Positions 3,086-15,469 of a stretch of 64,000 bases of DNA are shown here, piece by piece; within the stretch, counting starts at the first letter, position 1, and every line of letters starts with the position of its first letter. This DNA is from Methylococcus sp. EFPC2 (GTDB lineage Bacteria; Pseudomonadota; Gammaproteobacteria; Methylococcales; Methylococcaceae): NCBI RefSeq assembly GCF_016925495.1, contig NZ_CP070491.1:1364001-1428000 (forward strand), written 5' to 3'. The notes under the pieces are model-generated. The model was not told the DNA's origin, made no database searches, and saw nothing but the letters and a program-made list of their open reading frames with translations. Position numbers and translations under genes: made by a program.

Positions 3086-3817
3086 TTAATAGCCGGTTTT
3101 CGTTTCCTCGTTTTCCTTGAGGTGTGACCAGTAGCCCCAGTCCCTGCCCCGCCAACGCCCCGGTATCAGGTCGAAATACAAACACAGGCAGCGAAACACC
3201 GAATGGGCGGTCTTGCGCCAGAGACCAAGGTCTAATCGCCGGTGATCGCTGGCATAGACCGGCAGATCGGGCGCGAACACCACCCGGTGGCCCGCTCGCT
3301 TGATGCGCCAGACTAGTTCGGAATCCTCGTTGCACACCAGGCTGGTGTCGAATCCTCCCACCTGTGCAAACACGCTCCGCCTCACCAGCAAATTGGACCC
3401 AGTTGCGGCGGGGATGCCTAAGCGATGCGAGGCCTGCTGGGCCAGGGCGAATCCTCGGTAATAGCGCGCGTAGCCGTTGCGCGACAATTTGGCCCCGTAC
3501 ACGACATCGCAGCGGGTCTCATAACCGGCGAGGCTGGCGAAATAGCTTTCCGGAAAATGGACGTCGGCGTCGGTGAACAGCAGCCACTCGGTGCGTGCCA
3601 GTTCCGCACCCAGTTGGCGGGCTTCGGCGATGTTGCTCCGCTGCCTAAATATCAGCGTCCGCTCGGGCCGTTCTCGCTTCACGATCTCGGCCGTTTCGTC
3701 GTCGCTCGCGTCGATAACGATGAGTTCCACGGATTTCGGCAGCGTGGCCAGGAAGCCGGCGATGTTGCGTGCTTCGTTTCGGGTGGGCAGTACGACGGTC
3801 ACATTTTCCGGGGTCAT
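3086..3817 (-). CDS. Family 2 glycosyltransferase
   Basis: This 243-residue GT-A fold enzyme transfers a sugar from a nucleotide donor, probably at the cytoplasmic face of the membrane. It shows the opening VTVVLPTRNEARNIAGFL, the metal-binding DxD as FTDADVHF near residue 97, and a later NEDSELVWRIKRAGHRV acceptor/catalytic region with the ED pair. Helical hydrophobic segments are weak, so it is likely membrane-associated rather than integral. ATG 3817 is preferred over the open upstream ATG at 3868 because AGGA lies 7 bases before it. The acceptor is unknown and no polysaccharide genes adjoin it. It is transcribed divergently from lexA. Confidence 0.85.
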   Translation of the reverse strand: MTPENVTVVLPTRNEARNIAGFLATLPKSVELIVIDASDDETAEIVKRERPERTLIFRQRSNIAEARQLGAELARTEWLLFTDADVHFPESYFASLAGYETRCDVVYGAKLSRNGYARYYRGFALAQQASHRLGIPAATGSNLLVRRSVFAQVGGFDTSLVCNEDSELVWRIKRAGHRVVFAPDLPVYASDHRRLDLGLWRKTAHSVFRCLCLYFDLIPGRWRGRDWGYWSHLKENEETKTGY

Positions 3818-5374: not shown

Positions 5375-7018
5375 ATGCTCGCCCTCGCCCAGACGCTGCC
5401 TTTATTCGAGGAGTCCCCGCCCGCCCCCGAGCGCCGGCCCGAAGCGGGCCGCTTGTGGCTCTGCGCGCACTTCCCCGACCTGGCCTTGGAAGTTCTGCCC
5501 ATCAACCCGGCCCGCCCGGCGGCGACGGTGGAAGAAAGGAAAGGCCGCCCAGTCATCCACGCGGTATCGGCCGGTGCGAAACAGGCCGGCGTCGAGCCGG
5601 GCATGGCTTTGGCCGCCGCCCTCGCCTTGTGTCCCGGCCTGGATATCCGGTCGCGAGACCCGATGGCGGAACGGGAAGCGCTGAACCGGCTGGCGGAAAC
5701 CGGGCTGGATTTCACGCCTTGGGTCAGCCTGGACCAGCCGGAAAGCCTGCTGCTGGAAATCCGCGCCAGCCTGAATCTTTTCGGCGGCACCGAGAAGCTG
5801 CGAGTAGGCTTGCGATCCCGGCTGGCCGCACTGGGTCATAGCCCCGTCATCGCCATCGCCCCGAGCTCCGAAGCCAGCGCCCTGCTGGCCAGGCTGGGCC
5901 TGGAGACTACCGTGTCCGAGACCCAGGCCTTGCGCTCCGCACTGGGCCGGGTACCGATCGCCGCGCTATCCCTGGACGAAAAAAAGGTACGGCGCCTGCT
6001 CAAAACCGGCGTCCGCCATCTGGCCGACCTTTGGCGCCTGCCCCGCGACGGACTGGCACGGCGTTATGGATCGGAACTTCTGCGCCAACTGGACGCACTG
6101 AGCGGCGCCGAAACCCGGATCTTGAGTGCCTATCACTGCCCGCCGCGCTTCACCGCCCGGCGCGAGATGCCCCTGGCACTGGAGCGGCTGGATCATTTCT
6201 TCCCAGCCATCGAGCAAATGACAGAGGAGTTCGCGGTCTTTCTCAAGGCCCGCGATGCCGCCGCCTCCGAACTCAAGCTAATACTGCATCATCAAGGCCG
6301 ACCGGCGAGCGGGCTGGAACTGCGCTTCCGTTCCGGCAATCGCGATGCCTCCCATTGGTGCCGCTTGTTGCGCGAGAAACTGGAGCGCTCTCCCCTGCCC
6401 GCACCGCTCATCGCCGTGGAACTGGAAAGCGGGAGCATCGTGCCTTTCGAGCCGGAACGGACCGATTTGTTCGGCGACGAGACGGCGCAATCCGGCGATG
6501 GCAGGGACTGGCAGGCGGTGTTGGAGCAACTCCAGGCCCGCTTGGGCTCCCACGCCGTACAACGGCTGGCGGCCGTGGCCGACCATAGACCGGAGCACGC
6601 TCTGCACAGGGATGGAGGAAAGAGCTCACGAACACCTGGCCGTGTTTTTCACACGCCTACTCCAGAGCCTACACACGTAGGCTGGAATAAGCGGCGGCGC
6701 ATTCCAGCAGACAGGCCAAAAAGCCGGGATTCCCTACGGTCATCCCAGCCTACGGAGGAAAACGAAGCTTCCGCAGCATCATACGGCACGAACTCCCTTT
6801 TATCTTTGCGCCCAGTCTGGCTGCTAACCGAACCCGAACCCTTGGCTGCCAAGGACATTCGACTGCTGTCCGAAGCCGAGCGCATCGAATCCGGCTGGTG
6901 GGACGGCGGCTCGATACGCCGCGACTACCATCGCGCGACGGATAGGCGGGGACGCCGGCTCTGGGTCTACCGCGACCTGCACGACGGAGGCTGGTATCTC
7001 CATGGTCTCTACGGCTGA
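5375..7018 (+). CDS. imuB: ImuB, catalytically inactive Y-family polymerase-like protein
   Basis: This 547-residue protein has the Y-family palm/fingers/little-finger order but lacks the catalytic acids. The usual first Asp region reads LWLCAHFPDLALEVL, and the second acidic motif reads LLLEIRASLNLFGG. ImuB acts as the adaptor that brings DnaE2 and the sliding clamp together; RTDLFG near residue 366 resembles a clamp-binding peptide. Residues about 412-468 are an atypical Arg/Pro/Ser-rich stretch coded by palindromic repeat DNA, again in frame. The C-terminus resumes normal family sequence (WLLTEPEPL, then WWDGGSIRRDYHRA). It starts 9 bases after imuA and overlaps dnaE2 by 17 bases. Confidence 0.9.
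   Translation: MLALAQTLPLFEESPPAPERRPEAGRLWLCAHFPDLALEVLPINPARPAATVEERKGRPVIHAVSAGAKQAGVEPGMALAAALALCPGLDIRSRDPMAEREALNRLAETGLDFTPWVSLDQPESLLLEIRASLNLFGGTEKLRVGLRSRLAALGHSPVIAIAPSSEASALLARLGLETTVSETQALRSALGRVPIAALSLDEKKVRRLLKTGVRHLADLWRLPRDGLARRYGSELLRQLDALSGAETRILSAYHCPPRFTARREMPLALERLDHFFPAIEQMTEEFAVFLKARDAAASELKLILHHQGRPASGLELRFRSGNRDASHWCRLLREKLERSPLPAPLIAVELESGSIVPFEPERTDLFGDETAQSGDGRDWQAVLEQLQARLGSHAVQRLAAVADHRPEHALHRDGGKSSRTPGRVFHTPTPEPTHVGWNKRRRIPADRPKSRDSLRSSQPTEENEASAASYGTNSLLSLRPVWLLTEPEPLAAKDIRLLSEAERIESGWWDGGSIRRDYHRATDRRGRRLWVYRDLHDGGWYLHGLYG
6612..6770. repeat. Palindromic repeat inserted in frame within imuB
   Basis: GCTGGAAT at 6681-6688 pairs with ATTCCAGC at 6701-6708, GGGAT at 6726-6730 pairs with ATCCC at 6742-6746, and the outer GTAGGCTGG at 6678-6686 pairs with CCAGCCTAC at 6745-6753. 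This looks like two adjacent dispersed hairpin units in opposite orientation. The segment encodes a low-complexity linker and contains no stop in the imuB frame. Confidence 0.65.
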
Positions 7019-10000
7019 GACGGCCTTTGCCGAGCTGCATTGCCTGTCCAATTTCAGCTTTCTGCGCGGAGCCTCGCACCCGGAGGAACTGGTGGCCGAG
7101 GCCGCGCGGCTGGGCTACCGGGCGCTGGCACTGACCGACGAATGCTCGCTGGCCGGCGTGGTGCGAGCGCACCTGGAGGCGCGCAAACACGATATCCGGC
7201 TGATCGTCGGCAGCGAGTTCCGGCTGGAAGACGGCCTCAAGCTGGTCCTGCTGGCCACCGACCGCAGCAGCTACGGCCATCTTTCCGCACTCATCACCCT
7301 GGCCCGCCGGCAGGCGGAGAAAGGTAGTTACCGATTGAGCCGGGAGGATCTGGAAACGCATTTTCCGCGAGACTGCCTGGCGATCTGGCTGCCCGGCGAG
7401 CAAATTCAGGAAGCCGACGGCCTTTGGCTCAAGGATCGGTTCGGCAACGAACTTGGTCTGGGTTACGGCCGTTTTCTCTCTGGACGTGATCGCGAGCGCA
7501 TGCGCCAGGCCGAAAGCTTGGGCCAGCGACTCGGTATCCCTCGTGTGGCCTGCAACGACGTGCACATGCACCGCCGCTCGCGCCGGGCGCTGCAGGACAC
7601 GCTCACCGCCATCCGCTTAAACCTCCCCCTGTCGCAACTGGGCTATCAACTGTTCCCTAACGGCGAACGGCATCTGCGTCCCCTGCCCCACCTGGCCGAA
7701 CTCTATCCACCGGACTGGCTCAAGGCGTCGCTGGCCATCTCCGAACGCTGCCACTTTTCGCTGGATGAATTGCGCTATGAGTATCCGCGCGAACTGGTGC
7801 CCGAGGGGCACACTCCCGCCTCCTGGTTGCGCCATCTGGCCGAAACGGGCATGCGGAAGCGCTGGCCGAACGGTGCCCCTGCCAAGGTGCAACGACAAGT
7901 CGAACATGAGTTGAAGCTGATCGCCGAGCTGACCTATGAGCCTTATTTCCTCACCGTGTACGACATCGTCCGCTACGCACGGGAGCATGGCATCCTGTGC
8001 CAGGGGCGCGGCTCGGCGGCCAATTCGACGGTGTGTTTTTGTCTCGGGATCACCGAGGTCGATCCGGCGCGGCTGGATCTCTTGTTCGAGCGCTTTCTTT
8101 CCCGCGAGCGCAACGAACCGCCCGACATCGACGTGGATTTCGAACACGAGCGGCGCGAGGAAGTCATCCAGTACATCTACCGCAAATACGGCCGCCACCG
8201 CGCCGCCCTGGCCGCCACCGTCATCACCTACCGGGCGCGCAGCGCGGTGCGCGACGTGGGCAAGGCGCTGGGCTTGAACCTGGCCCAGGTAGAGCGATTG
8301 GCCGACACGGTGGACCGCTGGGACGGCTACCGGCTGATGCCGGAAGCCTTGCGCGACTGCGGCTTCGATCCGGCAAGCCCGGCCATACGCCGGCTGGCGG
8401 TTCTGGTCGAAGAAATCCAGGGCTTTCCCCGCCATCTCTCGCAGCATGTCGGCGGCTTCGTCATCGCTCGCGACGACTTGTCGCGCCTGGTGCCGGTGGA
8501 AAATGCCGCGATGGCCGAGCGCACCGTGATCCAGTGGGAGAAGGACGATCTGGAAGCCATGGGCCTGCTCAAGGTGGACGTGCTGGCACTGGGCATGCTC
8601 AGTGCCATCCGCAAAGCCTTGGTCCATCTCGGCGAATACACCGGCCGCGCCTGGACCCTGGCCGACATCCCGGCCGAAGACTCGGCGGTCTACGCCATGT
8701 TGCAGCAAGCCGACAGCATAGGCGTTTTCCAGGTGGAGTCGCGCGCGCAGATGACCATGCTGCCCCGGCTCAAGCCGGCCAATTACTACGACCTGGTGGT
8801 CCAGATCGCCATCGTCCGCCCCGGCCCCATCCAGGGCGAGATGGTTCATCCCTACCTGGCCCGGCGCAAGGGCTTGGAGCCGGTCAGCTATCCCAGCCCA
8901 GAGGTGCAAAAAGTGCTGGAGCGTACCTTAGGGATACCGATCTTCCAGGAGCAGGTGATGCAAATCGCCATGGTCGCGGCCGGCTTCACCGCCGGCGAGG
9001 CGGACCAGTTGCGCCGCGCCATGGCGGCCTGGAAGCGCAAGGGCGGGCTGGAACCTTTCGAGCACAAGCTCATGGCCGGCATGCGGGAACGCGGCTATGG
9101 CGAGGAATTCGCCCAGCGCATCTTCCAGCAGATCAAGGGCTTCGGCGATTACGGTTTTCCCGAGTCCCATTCCGCCAGCTTCGCCCTGCTGGCCTATGTA
9201 TCCGCCTGGCTCAAATGCCATCATCCCGCCGCCTTCTGCTGCGCCCTGCTCAACAGCCAGCCCATGGGTTTCTATCAGCCCTCGCAACTGATACAGGACG
9301 CCCGACGGCACGGCGTGGAAATCAGGCCGGTGGACGTGCAGGCGAGCGCGGCCCAATGTTCGCTGGAGTGTGCGGATGAGGCGCCGCCCGCCCTGCGCCT
9401 GGGATACAACCAGGTGAAAGGCTGCTCGGAGCGGGCGGCCTCGGCCATCGTCCGGGCCAGGGAAGAGGGTTTATTCCGCGACGTGGCCGACTTGGCGACC
9501 CGGGCCGGGCTGGAGCGGAAGGACCTGGAATGCCTGGCGGCGGCCGATGCCTTAAAGAGCCTGGCCGGCAACCGCCATCGGGCTTACTGGGAGGCCGCCG
9601 CCCTGGAGCCGCCCACGCCGGTGTTCGGCACACCATACATCGCCGAAGCCAGCCCGATGCTCAGATCGCCGAGCGAAGCCCAGGACATCCTGGCGGATTA
9701 TGCCGCGACCGGTCTGAGCCTGCGCCGCCATCCGCTGGAACTCTTGCGCGACAAGCTGCGGGAGCGGGGCGTCACCACCGCCCAAGCCTTGCGGGACAAG
9801 CGCGACGGCAGCATCGCCCGAGTCGCCGGCCTGGTCATCGGCCGCCAGCGCCCCATGACCGCGGCCGGCGTTACCTTCGTGACTCTGGAAGACGAAACCG
9901 GCCAGGTCAATCTCGTCGTCTGGGCCTCCCTCGCCCAGAAGCAGCGCAAGGCCTTGCTGAAATCGCGTTTATTGGCCGCCACCGGCCAGGTGCAACAGGA

Positions 10001-10091
10001 AGACGGCGTGCTTCACCTGGTCGCCGGAAGGCTGGAAGACTGGAGCGCCTTGATCGGCAGCCTGGCTTTCAAGTCGAGGGATTTTCAGTAG
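7002..10091 (+). CDS. dnaE2: Error-prone DNA polymerase DnaE2 (ImuC)
   Basis: At 1029 residues this is the length expected for DnaE2 and shorter than replicative DnaE. The N-terminal PHP domain begins AELHCLSNFSFLRGAS. The polymerase core has QGRGSAANSTVCF and the catalytic aspartates in PPDIDVDFEHERREEV near residue 376. Helix-hairpin-helix and OB-fold regions follow (AGLVIGRQRPMTAAGVTFVTLEDE near 944-967). It synthesises across lesions during SOS, together with ImuA and ImuB. Its start lies inside the end of imuB, so expression is coupled and LexA-controlled. No clear terminator hairpin was seen directly after it. Confidence 0.95.
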   Translation: MVSTAETAFAELHCLSNFSFLRGASHPEELVAEAARLGYRALALTDECSLAGVVRAHLEARKHDIRLIVGSEFRLEDGLKLVLLATDRSSYGHLSALITLARRQAEKGSYRLSREDLETHFPRDCLAIWLPGEQIQEADGLWLKDRFGNELGLGYGRFLSGRDRERMRQAESLGQRLGIPRVACNDVHMHRRSRRALQDTLTAIRLNLPLSQLGYQLFPNGERHLRPLPHLAELYPPDWLKASLAISERCHFSLDELRYEYPRELVPEGHTPASWLRHLAETGMRKRWPNGAPAKVQRQVEHELKLIAELTYEPYFLTVYDIVRYAREHGILCQGRGSAANSTVCFCLGITEVDPARLDLLFERFLSRERNEPPDIDVDFEHERREEVIQYIYRKYGRHRAALAATVITYRARSAVRDVGKALGLNLAQVERLADTVDRWDGYRLMPEALRDCGFDPASPAIRRLAVLVEEIQGFPRHLSQHVGGFVIARDDLSRLVPVENAAMAERTVIQWEKDDLEAMGLLKVDVLALGMLSAIRKALVHLGEYTGRAWTLADIPAEDSAVYAMLQQADSIGVFQVESRAQMTMLPRLKPANYYDLVVQIAIVRPGPIQGEMVHPYLARRKGLEPVSYPSPEVQKVLERTLGIPIFQEQVMQIAMVAAGFTAGEADQLRRAMAAWKRKGGLEPFEHKLMAGMRERGYGEEFAQRIFQQIKGFGDYGFPESHSASFALLAYVSAWLKCHHPAAFCCALLNSQPMGFYQPSQLIQDARRHGVEIRPVDVQASAAQCSLECADEAPPALRLGYNQVKGCSERAASAIVRAREEGLFRDVADLATRAGLERKDLECLAAADALKSLAGNRHRAYWEAAALEPPTPVFGTPYIAEASPMLRSPSEAQDILADYAATGLSLRRHPLELLRDKLRERGVTTAQALRDKRDGSIARVAGLVIGRQRPMTAAGVTFVTLEDETGQVNLVVWASLAQKQRKALLKSRLLAATGQVQQEDGVLHLVAGRLEDWSALIGSLAFKSRDFQ

Positions 10092-11779: not shown

Positions 11780-13011
11780 GGTGTGGATTCAACCGGTGGA
11801 TGCAACGGTTTGGTGAAATCGTTGTGCTGGCGTTTCGTAGTTTAGTGTTTTCCTTGGGCGCCCATTCAATTCTCGCGCTACGGCATTAAGCTTGGCTTGT
11901 GAATAGGCAGACAAGTCAATTCCCTTCGGGAAATACTGGCGCAGAAGTCCGTTGGTATTCTCATTGGTTCCCCGTTGCCAAGGGTGGTGCGGATCACAGA
12001 AATAGACTTGGATGTCGGTAGCCAAAGTAAAACGCTTGTGGTCAGCCATTTCCTTGCCCCGGTCCCAGGTCAGCGATTTGTATAATTCTTGCGGCAATTT
12101 ATGAGCATTCTTGATCAACGCATTGGTGACGGTTTCGGTGTCCTTTCCGGACAGTTTGAGCAGCATCACGTAACGTGACTGACGTTCCACGAGCGTCGCA
12201 ATCTGACTGTTCTTGCTGCCGCACAGCAGGTCGCCTTCCCAATGCCCCGGTATGGCCCGATCATCCGCCGCGGCAGGACGTTCGCTAATGGACACGGTAT
12301 CGACGATTCGGCCGTGATTGTCCGTCTTCTGAGTGTGATGACGAGAACGGCGCATGGCGCGTGTACGACGCAAATACGCCAGCAACTCCTTCTTCAAAGC
12401 CCCTCGGGTTTGGATGAACAAGGTGCGATAGATCGTCTCGTGTGACACCTGATGACTTGCATGGTCGGGATAGATGCGCTTGAGCCATCCGGCAATCTGT
12501 TCCGGCGACCACAGCAACTGGAGCTTGTTCGCCACGATGTGGGCAAGCGTTCGGCTCTCCACCAGCTTACAACGCTTGGGACGACGCGCCCGATCCCAGG
12601 TAGCCTGGTCGGCTTGGCTGGCTCTATAGCAACTCCGACCTCCATTGCGATTGATTTCTCGGCTGATGGTGGAAGGCGCTCGCCCGAGCTGGCTTGCAAG
12701 GGTACGAATGGAGTGCCCCGCAACCAAACCTCGGGAAATTTCTTCCCGGTTGCTCAGCGTCAGCGCCAACCTAGAGCGACATCGCGGAGCAGGAGGTATC
12801 CCACCTGTCTCCGCCAGAATTCTCTGAACCGACGAGTGGTTGCGATCGAATAGTTGCGCAATCTGCTGGAGGGAGTCGCCCTTTCTCCAGCGCTCCCACA
12901 TCAGCGCCTTCTGGCTGTCCGTGTAATAGATTCGGGGTCGCTGTTTCATCTGCAACACTCCTTCTGCCTATGCAGATCTAGTATGTTGCATCCACCGGTT
13001 GAATCCACACC
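11780..13011 (-). mobile_element. Complete IS30-family insertion sequence
   Basis: The 27-base terminal inverted repeats are exact: left 11780-11806 (begins GGTGTGGATTC) and right 12985-13011 (its complement). They enclose one transposase gene, giving an element of 1232 bp. The transposase stop codon lies inside the left repeat. No target duplication is evident: the left flank ends TCT and the right flank starts GAT. The repeat itself contains AACCGGTGG, echoing the ACCGGT cores of the array 190 bp to the right. Confidence 0.9.
11789..12949 (-). CDS. IS30-family transposase
   Basis: This 386-residue DDE enzyme has an N-terminal helix-turn-helix (DSLQQIAQLFDRNHSSVQRIL) and a second one (RTLASQLGRAPSTISREINRNGG) as in IS30. 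The catalytic core residues lie in IPGHWEGDLL (Asp), LTWDRGKEMADH (Asp) and PWQRGTNENTNGLLRQYFPKG (Glu). ATG 12949 is chosen because AAGGAG sits 8 bases upstream; an in-frame GTG at 12958 would be too close to that site. The gene is intact, so the element could be active. Confidence 0.93.
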   Translation of the reverse strand: MKQRPRIYYTDSQKALMWERWRKGDSLQQIAQLFDRNHSSVQRILAETGGIPPAPRCRSRLALTLSNREEISRGLVAGHSIRTLASQLGRAPSTISREINRNGGRSCYRASQADQATWDRARRPKRCKLVESRTLAHIVANKLQLLWSPEQIAGWLKRIYPDHASHQVSHETIYRTLFIQTRGALKKELLAYLRRTRAMRRSRHHTQKTDNHGRIVDTVSISERPAAADDRAIPGHWEGDLLCGSKNSQIATLVERQSRYVMLLKLSGKDTETVTNALIKNAHKLPQELYKSLTWDRGKEMADHKRFTLATDIQVYFCDPHHPWQRGTNENTNGLLRQYFPKGIDLSAYSQAKLNAVARELNGRPRKTLNYETPAQRFHQTVASTG

Positions 13012-13198
13012 GATAACCAGCCGGGTTGAAGCGCTCACTCGCGAATATGTAAGCATGTTGCTTCTGGCGGTGTGAGTCACGCATCCCCCCCTATTCCAGC
13101 ACCATGCCTTGCGCGGGAAGGAAGCTTTCGAACGGACACCTGCGCAATTTCATTTTCGCAGGCACTCCCAGCCGGATCCCGGTGCCGACTCGGCAAAA
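13012..13198. other. Non-coding stretch between IS30 and the palindrome array
   Basis: No gene, hairpin terminator or RNA could be supported here. A minus-strand frame entering from the array is open through it but shows no protein-like features beyond the repeat. Confidence 0.35.
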
Positions 13199-13450
13199 AG
13201 CGGTTACCACGATGCAATCACCGGTTTTTGCGCGACGGTAACCGGTTACCACGGGAGGGTCACCGGTATTTTTACGTTGATCACCGGTGATTGAGGCAAA
13301 TTTACCGGTGAGTGTCAGTCGAAAACCGGTGATCGCGAGACGATCACCGGTTACCGTCTCGTGGTAACTGGTTATCACGGGAAAATCACCGGTTACCGTG
13401 CCGCGCTCACCGGTTTTCATGCAGTGGTAACCGATATTTTCGTGTCGGTC
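13199..13450. repeat. Twelve-unit, 21-bp-period array of ACCGGT palindromes
   Basis: Cores ACCGGT, or one-base variants, begin at 13199, 13220, 13241, 13262, 13283, 13304, 13325, 13346, 13367, 13388, 13409 and 13430, exactly 21 bases apart with no slippage. CCCGGT at 13178 may be a thirteenth degenerate unit. Many cores extend to ten-base dyads such as TAACCGGTTA (13239-13248) and TCACCGGTGA (13281-13290). The bases between cores vary widely, so the core and the spacing are conserved rather than the whole unit. Both strands read as heptapeptides with a Thr-Gly pair because the core is palindromic and 21 is a multiple of three. Twenty-one bases is two helical turns, so all dyads face the same side. 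Confidence 0.85.
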
Positions 13451-13728: not shown

Positions 13729-13993
13729 CTAGCGCGGGCGGTCCGACTTGCCCAACCCTTCCCAGGGTTCGAACAGGCGCTCGTCCTCGATGCCGAACAG
13801 CGCCAGTATCCGGCCCACGGTTTCGTCGATCAGCTCGGGCAGGGTCTTGGCGCGGCCGTAGAAGGCCGGCATGGGCGGGTAGACAATGCCGCCCATCTCG
13901 GTCACGGCCGCCATGTTGCGGATATGGGCCAGATTCAGCGGCGTTTCCCGCAGCCTGATGACCAGGCGCCGGCGTTCCTTGAATGTGACGTCG
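13729..13993 (-). pseudogene. ubiX remnant (C-terminal part only)
   Basis: The minus strand encodes the UbiX C-terminus from about LRETPLNLAHIRNM onward to the end (MGGIVYPPMPAFYGRAKTL, then WEGLGKSD), nearly identical to the intact gene at 20660. The N-terminal flavin/prenyl-binding part is absent because of the deletion, and the frame upstream joins unrelated sequence. An intact copy lies 7 kb to the right, so loss of this copy should be harmless. Confidence 0.85.
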
Positions 13994-14094: not shown

Positions 14095-15306
14095 TGTAGA
14101 AGTTCAGACTTGATCTGACAGTTACCCGTTTTGGGTGCGCCTGGTTGTCAGATCAAATTCAAGTGGCTGACTTTTTGGTCCCACACCTCCTTTCCAGCAT
14201 GAAGTGTTTGTAGGGGTGTGCGTCCGCAGCACATCTTACCCTGATGGGTTCTCTCCTGGTTATAGTGGTCGATCCAGGCATCCAGGTCGGCCTGCAGCTC
14301 GTCCATGGATAGATAAAGCTTCTTGCGGAAAGCGACCTGATAAAACTCCTGTAACAGGGTTTTGTGGAAGCGTTCGCAGATGCCATTGGTCTGTGGATGA
14401 TGCGCCCGGGTCTTGGTGTGCTCGATGTCGTTGAGCGCCAGATAGAGCTGATAGTCGTGCGTTTCGGCCTTGCCGCAGTATTCGGTGCCCCGGTCCGTCA
14501 GGATGCGCAGTACGCCCATCCCGTGTTCGGCGAAGAAGGGCAGTACCCGGTCATTGAGCAGGTCGGCGGCGGTGATCGGCGTCTTGGTCGTATAGAGCTT
14601 GGCCATCGCCACCTTGCTGTAGGTATCCACGAAGGTCTGCTGGTAGATACGGCCCACGCCTTTGAGCGTGCCGACATAGAAGGTGTCCTGGGAACCCAGG
14701 TAGCCCGGATGCGCCGTGTCGATCTCGCCCTGCGCCAGATCGTCGTCCTGCTTCTTCTCCAGCGCCACCACCTGGGCTTCGGTGAGCACGATACCTTGCT
14801 CTGCCACCTGTTTCTCCAAGGCGGTCAGGCGTCGCTTGAACGAGGCCAGGTCGTTGCGTAGCCAGATGGAGCGGACGCCCGAGGGCGAAACGAAGATGCC
14901 GCGTTGGCGCAACTCGTTGCTGGTCCTGACTTGCCCATGGGCCGGTTGCTCGGTGGCATAGGCAATCACCGCCGTTTCCGTCGCTTCTTCAACCCGGTTC
15001 TTCGGATTCGGTTTGCGGCGGTTGGCGTCAAACAATGCTTCAAGCCCCCCTTCCGCCATCGCATGCTGATAGCGATAGAAGGTGTCACGCGACAGACCCA
15101 TGACCTTGCAGGCCTTGGCGACATTGCCTAACTCGGTCGCCAGGTTCAGCAAGCCGATCTTGTGGCGTATGACATTCTGATTGAGACTACTCATGGGGTT
15201 ACTCCTGCGCTTACGCGCCGTTTCGATGAAGATTCGCACCTCTATCAAAACGGGTAACCCCACCTCTCGGCAAGGAGTACTGTCAGATCTAGTCTGAACT
15301 TCTACA
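14095..15306 (-). mobile_element. Complete IS481-family insertion sequence with 7-bp target duplication
   Basis: Terminal inverted repeats of 28 bases with one mismatch lie at 14095-14122 and 15279-15306 (outer ends TGTAGAAGTTCAGACT). The seven bases CATTAGT flank it directly on both sides (14088-14094 and 15307-15313). The element is 1212 bp with one intact transposase gene. It inserted exactly at the right end of the duplicated ubiX/pip fragment. Confidence 0.93.
14148..15194 (-). CDS. IS481-family transposase
   Basis: This 348-residue protein has an N-terminal helix-turn-helix (LATELGNVAKACKVMGLSRDTFYRY) and an integrase-type catalytic core. The core shows Asp in YLGSQDTFYVG, Asp in ILTDRGTEYCG and Glu in HHPQTNGICERFHKTL. 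ATG 15194 has AGGAGT seven bases upstream, which decides against the open extension to 15263. The frame is intact. Confidence 0.92.
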   Translation of the reverse strand: MSSLNQNVIRHKIGLLNLATELGNVAKACKVMGLSRDTFYRYQHAMAEGGLEALFDANRRKPNPKNRVEEATETAVIAYATEQPAHGQVRTSNELRQRGIFVSPSGVRSIWLRNDLASFKRRLTALEKQVAEQGIVLTEAQVVALEKKQDDDLAQGEIDTAHPGYLGSQDTFYVGTLKGVGRIYQQTFVDTYSKVAMAKLYTTKTPITAADLLNDRVLPFFAEHGMGVLRILTDRGTEYCGKAETHDYQLYLALNDIEHTKTRAHHPQTNGICERFHKTLLQEFYQVAFRKKLYLSMDELQADLDAWIDHYNQERTHQGKMCCGRTPLQTLHAGKEVWDQKVSHLNLI

Positions 15307-15315
15307 CATTAGTCA

Positions 15316-15347
15316 GGGTGGGCAAGCGTCTTTCTGATTGCCCACCC
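15316..15347. repeat. Dispersed hairpin repeat
   Basis: GGGTGGGCAA (15316-15325) pairs exactly with TTGCCCACCC (15338-15347) over a 12-base loop. The GGGCA/TGCCC core is like the hairpin inside imuA. It lies just right of the IS481 target duplication. It could also terminate transcripts but lacks a T run. Confidence 0.55.
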
Positions 15348-15469
15348 TACCACGCTTTCAGGAACACCGTTGAACTAGCACTATCGGCCAAGACCTGATA
15401 GCTACTCCATCGAGTCGAGCGACTCGTCACGGAAGTTAAATCGCGTCCGACCCCATAGTCCCTGAATGA

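Follow-up and report, generated by a model that had tools for sequence, protein, structure and literature searches.

The window, that is, the whole 64-kb stretch of DNA analyzed here, contains a tandem array of short palindromes that has, in our estimate, about an even chance of being a solitary representative of an element dispersed among bacteria. This element would be a tandem array of ~20-bp dyad-symmetric sites spaced at exactly two helical turns (21 bp) that, at related loci, usually appears to precede the promoter of an orphan gene that is present in multiple copies and encodes a protein of ~230 aa. A homodimeric DNA-binding protein would occupy successive sites on one face of the helix, and the bound dimers could form a cooperative nucleoprotein stretch controlling or insulating the neighboring promoter. 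The linkage of the array to the orphan gene recurs in three phyla, namely, that of the host order Methylococcales, Verrucomicrobia, and Bacteroidota (the latter two phyla being assigned from record titles and general taxonomy). Because the letters of the array differ from locus to locus, it is the period rather than the sequence that seems to be kept.

The cores of the window array start at 13199, 13220, and so on to 13430, every 21 bases with no indels, exactly as described in the first-pass annotation. The twelve ACCGGT palindromes reported there are slightly overstated: all twelve cores are in phase, but only nine are exact, and the other three carry one mismatch each (AGCGGT at 13199, ACTGGT at 13367, and ACCGAT at 13430). 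A 13th in-phase core, CCCGGT, is located at 13178. The 12-unit core score of the array is 69 of 72, compared with a mean of 35.4 and a maximum of 40 among 100 dinucleotide shuffles of the window, and the best score of the real window at other periods (15–59, excluding 21 and 42) does not exceed 44. The bases between the cores have indeed diverged greatly, with pairwise identity of 0.42 in the spacers vs 0.92 in the cores. The recurring dyads are equally real: the symmetry of the 21-column profile was reached in none of the 2000 column shuffles, so that the window array consists of dyad-symmetric sites of the kind expected of tandem operators. Read by eye, the consensus extends to a longer palindrome, approximately CGTGGTNACCGGTNACCACG. 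Tandem Repeats Finder reported no repeats in the window. The array and the features next to it are as follows.

13178–13450, no strand: array of 13 cores spaced exactly 21 bp apart, dyad-symmetric, solitary copy
13220–13351, no strand: seven consecutive exact ACCGGT cores (13220, 13241, 13262, 13283, 13304, 13325, and 13346)
13367–13372, no strand: variant core ACTGGT, in phase
13388–13414, no strand: two more exact cores, at 13388 and 13409
13430–13435, no strand: last in-phase core, ACCGAT
11780–13011, minus strand: IS30-type insertion sequence adjoining the array, outside the element; transposase at 11789–12958 with HTH_38 and rve domains
13729–13992, minus strand: flavoprotein gene remnant, outside the element (Pfam PF02441, E=1.5e-9)

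The array lies ~167 bp from the end of the IS30-type element, which is bounded by perfect inverted repeats, at least 24 bp long, with ACCGGT inside. The link with this element that had been suggested earlier does not hold: the ACCGGT of the terminal repeat, at 12994, is out of phase, its distance to 13199 being 205 bp, which is not a multiple of 21, and it belongs to the perfect inverted repeat. On the other side, the flavoprotein remnant, which we take to be UbiX-like, has broken frames and separates the array from the next insertion sequence; an Rfam psRNA2 match (15196–15372, 123.6 bits) overlaps the end of the transposase gene of this second insertion sequence (14148–15263). Ten proteins encoded between 5375 and 21478 were scanned for families and comprise three transposases, two DNA-polymerase-related proteins, an oxidoreductase, YidB, DUF3597, a hydrolase, and one protein without a family; the two polymerases form a translesion-type pair (5375–10091), an IMS-family polymerase followed by a DnaE-type polymerase III alpha subunit. 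A hidden Markov model of the orphan family detected no members in the window, hence we call the window array solitary; this copy would have lost its orphan gene or never had one, a supposition that shares the even chance assigned to the explanation as a whole.

The first-pass annotation compared the array to iterons or partition centromeres while noting that no replication or partition gene adjoins it. The latter observation is correct: among the same ten proteins, there is no replication-initiator family and no ParA, ParM, TubZ, or adaptor partition gene. The comparison itself fails, given that these families are missing and that related arrays lie upstream of the orphan family. In plasmid iterons and RepA arrays, tandem sites recur on one face of the DNA about every two helical turns, and the window array does contain in-phase direct repeats of ~20–22 bp, but the lack of an adjacent initiator led us to reject a plasmid iteron; furthermore, arrays of this type differ from iterons in their chromosomal location, their dyad symmetry, a sequence that changes from locus to locus, and the association with an orphan gene. 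Partition centromeres (ParR/TubR-type iterons and parS clusters) are also made of tandem dimer sites. A centromere is likewise rejected, with no partition genes found nearby, no conservation of the neighbors of related arrays, and several unrelated arrays present in one chromosome. No similarity to the window array at the DNA level was detected in plasmid and phage collections.

A whole-genome pattern search identified one more ACCGGT array in the host genome, 593 kb away (L005). This array consists of ~18 units with 11 exact cores and occupies a divergent intergenic region, and the start of a 230-aa gene follows after ~100 bp. A third array, of ~15 units built on a different palindrome, TACGNCCGTA, is located upstream of a distant paralog of this gene, the second family member of the genome, at C1:3861560-3862171. 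The presence of two arrays in one genome, each upstream of an orphan-family gene, supports the linkage. Allowing up to three mismatches, 10 palindrome sites were found genome-wide, 4 in the two ACCGGT arrays and 6 elsewhere, compared with 2 in the reversed control; a dispersed regulon is not evident.

The search of related genomes for ACCGGT arrays with 21-bp spacing, proposed in the first-pass annotation, was productive: such arrays exist in the host order, and arrays with this period, though often with other letters, precede most of the orphan-family genes examined. Among the 311 genomes of the order, two (G142 and G144) contain two arrays each with several exact ACCGGT cores and diverged spacers; another (G029) carries an array of at least 22 units that is more uniform, mostly, ACCGCT, and weaker arrays with fewer exact cores are present in G149, G133, and G158. 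Solitary arrays exist as well, given that no family hits were obtained in the fetched sequences of L055, L056, L057, and L059. A scan for four ACCGGT cores yielded at least 119 stretches in genome contigs and 11, mostly clonal, in viral contigs; many of the stretches, judged by eye to be near-identical repeats containing open frames, were excluded and the units of 13 were read, so that these counts imply no rate. In two Aminicenantes metagenome-assembled genomes (MAGs), where the orphan family was not found, there are several 21-bp ACCGGT arrays with mostly exact cores and diverged spacers (L068, L072, L074, L093, L151, and L183); one of these, L183, has 15 of 15 exact cores. At two loci, the ACCGGT array has close by another array, unlike it in sequence and with a 42-bp period (L072:6961-7360 and L144:3689-3878). 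A Tannerellaceae MAG (Cf509_bin38) contains 21-bp ACCGGT arrays on at least 10 contigs, several of them at contig ends (L070, L082, L085, L097, L099, L101, L107, L109, L142, L145, and L180).

To quantify the linkage, 90 loci of the host order were read, up to 1.5 kb on each side of the gene; the family search returned 30 of these, and the other 60, predominantly full-length hits, were picked manually from its list. Many of the loci are orthologs of one another, in several cases close ones (upstream identity of up to 98%), and are, hence, non-independent; L202 and L060 are the same place. Under a strict rule (the 21-bp lag family ranking first among 19, with a score of at least 0.5), a 21/42-bp array preceded the gene at 59 of 86 loci (the other 27 fell short of the rule) and followed it at 0 of 81; with rank 1 alone, the numbers are 77 of 86 testable loci and 0 of 81. 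Rank alone has a high background, with 17 of 98 tiles lacking arrays also ranking first, given that coding DNA favors lags divisible by three, as 21 is. When the window and six loci were cut into 104 consecutive tiles of 1.5 kb, the strict rule was passed only by the 6 tiles containing known arrays. The best single lag in the 86 upstream regions was 42 in 31 regions, 21 in 30, and 63 in 8.

The same arrangement was observed outside the host order. In Verrucomicrobia, the strict rule was passed upstream at 15 of 27 testable loci vs 1 of 32 downstream (counted from rounded scores, the downstream one at 0.50), and rank 1 was attained at 18 of 27 testable loci upstream and 4 of 32 downstream; one of the 32 loci comes from an Akkermansiaceae MAG. 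For example, in a Prosthecobacter debontii MAG (L118), an ACCGGT array at 3415–3672 ends ~110 bp before a family member (E=6e-22). In Bacteroidota, rank 1 was attained upstream at 8 of the 11 distinct loci (at 7 with a score of at least 0.5), and at 2 of 11 the array is downstream of the family gene instead; 7 of these 11 loci belong to one genome, and the gene starts of partial matches were extrapolated. The letters differ between paralogs (ACCGGT, CACGTG-centered units, GGATTT...AATCC, and others) but the period is constant. The arrays end at a median of 223 bp before the start codon, and several of the 46 proximal regions inspected show, by eye, TTGC-N17-CATTAT promoter-like boxes and AGGA before the start; the boxes between the array and the gene, together with the length of this gap, indicate that the array usually lies upstream of the promoter.

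The orphan protein (~230 aa) is predicted to consist of N-terminal helices and a C-terminal Fn3-like domain (AlphaFold2 model, mean pLDDT 86.5, pTM 0.52). With the whole model as the query, all the structural matches shown fall within the Fn3 part (Foldseek E of about 1e-4; VIA-align Z of about 11 over 84–86 residues at about 2 Å). The L005 gene and the other members tested match no Pfam, NCBIfam, or PHROGs family, and the best match to a solved structure by sequence (E=0.013) involves a coiled-coil stretch and was not accepted. The orphan proteins are mostly acidic (median pI of 6.2 for 33 proteins and 5.0 for the N-terminal part), which suggests that they probably do not bind the arrays themselves. 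The family is present in 55 of the 311 genomes of Methylococcales, with up to nine scored matches per genome, in 28 of 197 genomes of the verrucomicrobial order that includes the P. debontii MAG, and in 4 of 296 Bacteroidota genomes, and, in a sample of 398 genomes from the phylum of the window, only in the window's own genome; thus, its distribution is patchy. No family gene was found in viral contigs. There are no recurrent neighbor genes at the family loci, with the largest neighbor cluster spanning 5 of 90; downstream of one family gene, there are CRISPR repeats (L198:3452-3659, Rfam CRISPR-DR4).

The arrays might instead be a neutral minisatellite expanding through 21-bp slippage or unequal crossing-over, an unlikely alternative that would account for some of their properties. 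In well-aligned orthologous arrays, the length changes were 21 bp (four cases), 42 (one), 41 (two), and 1 (one); over 18 pairs, 5 of 15 array indels were multiples of 21, or 5 of 8 without the poorly aligned pairs L214/L219 and L273/L254, compared with 1 of 19 in the 3′ flanks, where indel size is arbitrary. Near-identical whole units, named in the first-pass annotation as an argument against a binding array, do occur at some paralogous loci, where the arrays are near-clonal (lag identity 0.94–0.96), but the window array is unlike these. Overall, the arrays are about as divergent as their flanks (83.3% vs 85.9% identity), which implies that most spacer positions are unconserved and limits the visible signs of selection to the single pair in which cores and spacers could be distinguished. 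This pair, L056/L057, consists of orthologous arrays 400–500 bp upstream of an efflux-type gene (protein 94% identical) and permits the comparison of core and spacer conservation that had been suggested: across five aligned units, the cores are identical at 30 of 30 positions, including the shared variant ACCGAT, compared with 42 of 75 in the spacers and 83.8% in the 550-column flank. Thus, in this one pair, the spacers have diverged beyond the flank while the cores remained unchanged. Such a pattern, along with a single period shared by unrelated sequences, placement upstream and not downstream, recurrence in three phyla, and the dyads, argues against neutral growth. Dyad symmetry was assessed in those arrays of the 77 rank-1 loci that were 120 bp or longer, 58 in all, and was significant (p≤0.05) in 32 at period 21 and in 39 at period 42, leaving 19 without significance at the latter period. 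Of the earlier interpretation, selection at the DNA level on core and phase is supported, by the dyads, the lack of stop codon depletion, the length steps of, mostly, 21 or ~42 bp, and the one pair, whereas the iteron or centromere comparison and the IS30 link are not.

In-phase repetition could also matter structurally, by producing intrinsic curvature without a specific binder. We consider this improbable: the period of two helical turns with a free sequence would fit, but neither the dyads nor a conserved palindromic core are necessary for curvature.

Tandem 21/42-nt repeats just upstream of a gene, with locus-specific sequence, also resemble the repeat RNA of type III toxin–antitoxin systems (ToxI), in which a repeat array precedes one gene, and a transcribed hairpin array acting with the downstream protein could be envisaged. 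Several observations make such an RNA element quite improbable. The arms within units do not covary, with 3024 pairs observed vs 3148 expected from permuted arms (z = −3.9, below expectation); at 37 well-paired axes, the observed pairing equals the expected, and there is no excess of G-T mismatches (756 vs 908 A-C). Rfam searches of the arrays in the window and at ten loci yielded no match. Unlike ToxI, the arrays show DNA-type symmetry and are separated from the gene by the promoter-like boxes. A type III system is also disfavored by the absence of a ToxN-like toxin downstream: the orphan gene belongs to no known toxin family in Pfam or NCBIfam, and its best PADLOC match (E=0.041) is not significant. 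Half-sites that follow the consensus independently, without covariation of the arms, are the pattern expected of a homodimer reading duplex DNA.

A gene for a protein of heptapeptide repeats (21 bp being 7 codons), such as a TGxxxxx beta-roll, is very improbable, even with open frames over the arrays of the window (154 aa) and L005 (197 aa), at least one open frame in 8 of 10 arrays checked, and a Pfam LbR_Ice_bind match just above the cut-off of 30 bits at L005 (E=2.2e-7, 31.3 bits) and below it in the window (E=5.1e-4), given that open frames occur in 30 of the 58 gene-linked arrays vs 23 upon sequence reversal, total stops are not depleted (1635 vs 1525 reversed), all six frames of L056 and L183 are interrupted by stops, and the L005 frame runs opposite to the orphan gene; the match and the open frames are taken as a by-product of the 21-bp unit.

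The reading that we favor, to which we give roughly equal weight for and against, is a DNA-level tandem platform that would bind dimers on one face of the helix, usually upstream of the promoter of the orphan gene, with a conjectural binder and function. Among known systems, this arrangement is like tandem operators of the MetJ, omega, or LacI-family type, with palindromic half-sites, no arm covariation, and a position upstream of the promoter, and unlike them in the number of sites (up to 22 or more), in keeping the period but not the sequence, and in having no clear dispersed regulon. Escherichia coli GntR has operators centered on ACCGGT. Literature listings and the opening parts of abstracts contained nothing on arrays of this kind.

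A broader proposal, more tentative than the binding platform, is that the 21-bp dyad array and the orphan Fn3-domain protein constitute a self-contained two-part module that has spread patchily through at least three phyla, with many copies in some genomes and a private array sequence for each copy. The period would be under selection while the letters drift, and the module might serve as an addressing or silencing system of an undescribed kind, with the solitary arrays being trans targets or relics. If this is true, an uncharacterized gene family, multi-copy in some methanotrophs and present also in Verrucomicrobia and Bacteroidota, would have an upstream region that keeps spacing but not sequence, which is unusual for protein-binding DNA. 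The arrays would then provide a handle on proteins for which, among the members tested, there is no Pfam, NCBIfam, or PHROGs model, and the findings point to a DNA element that has not been previously recognized.
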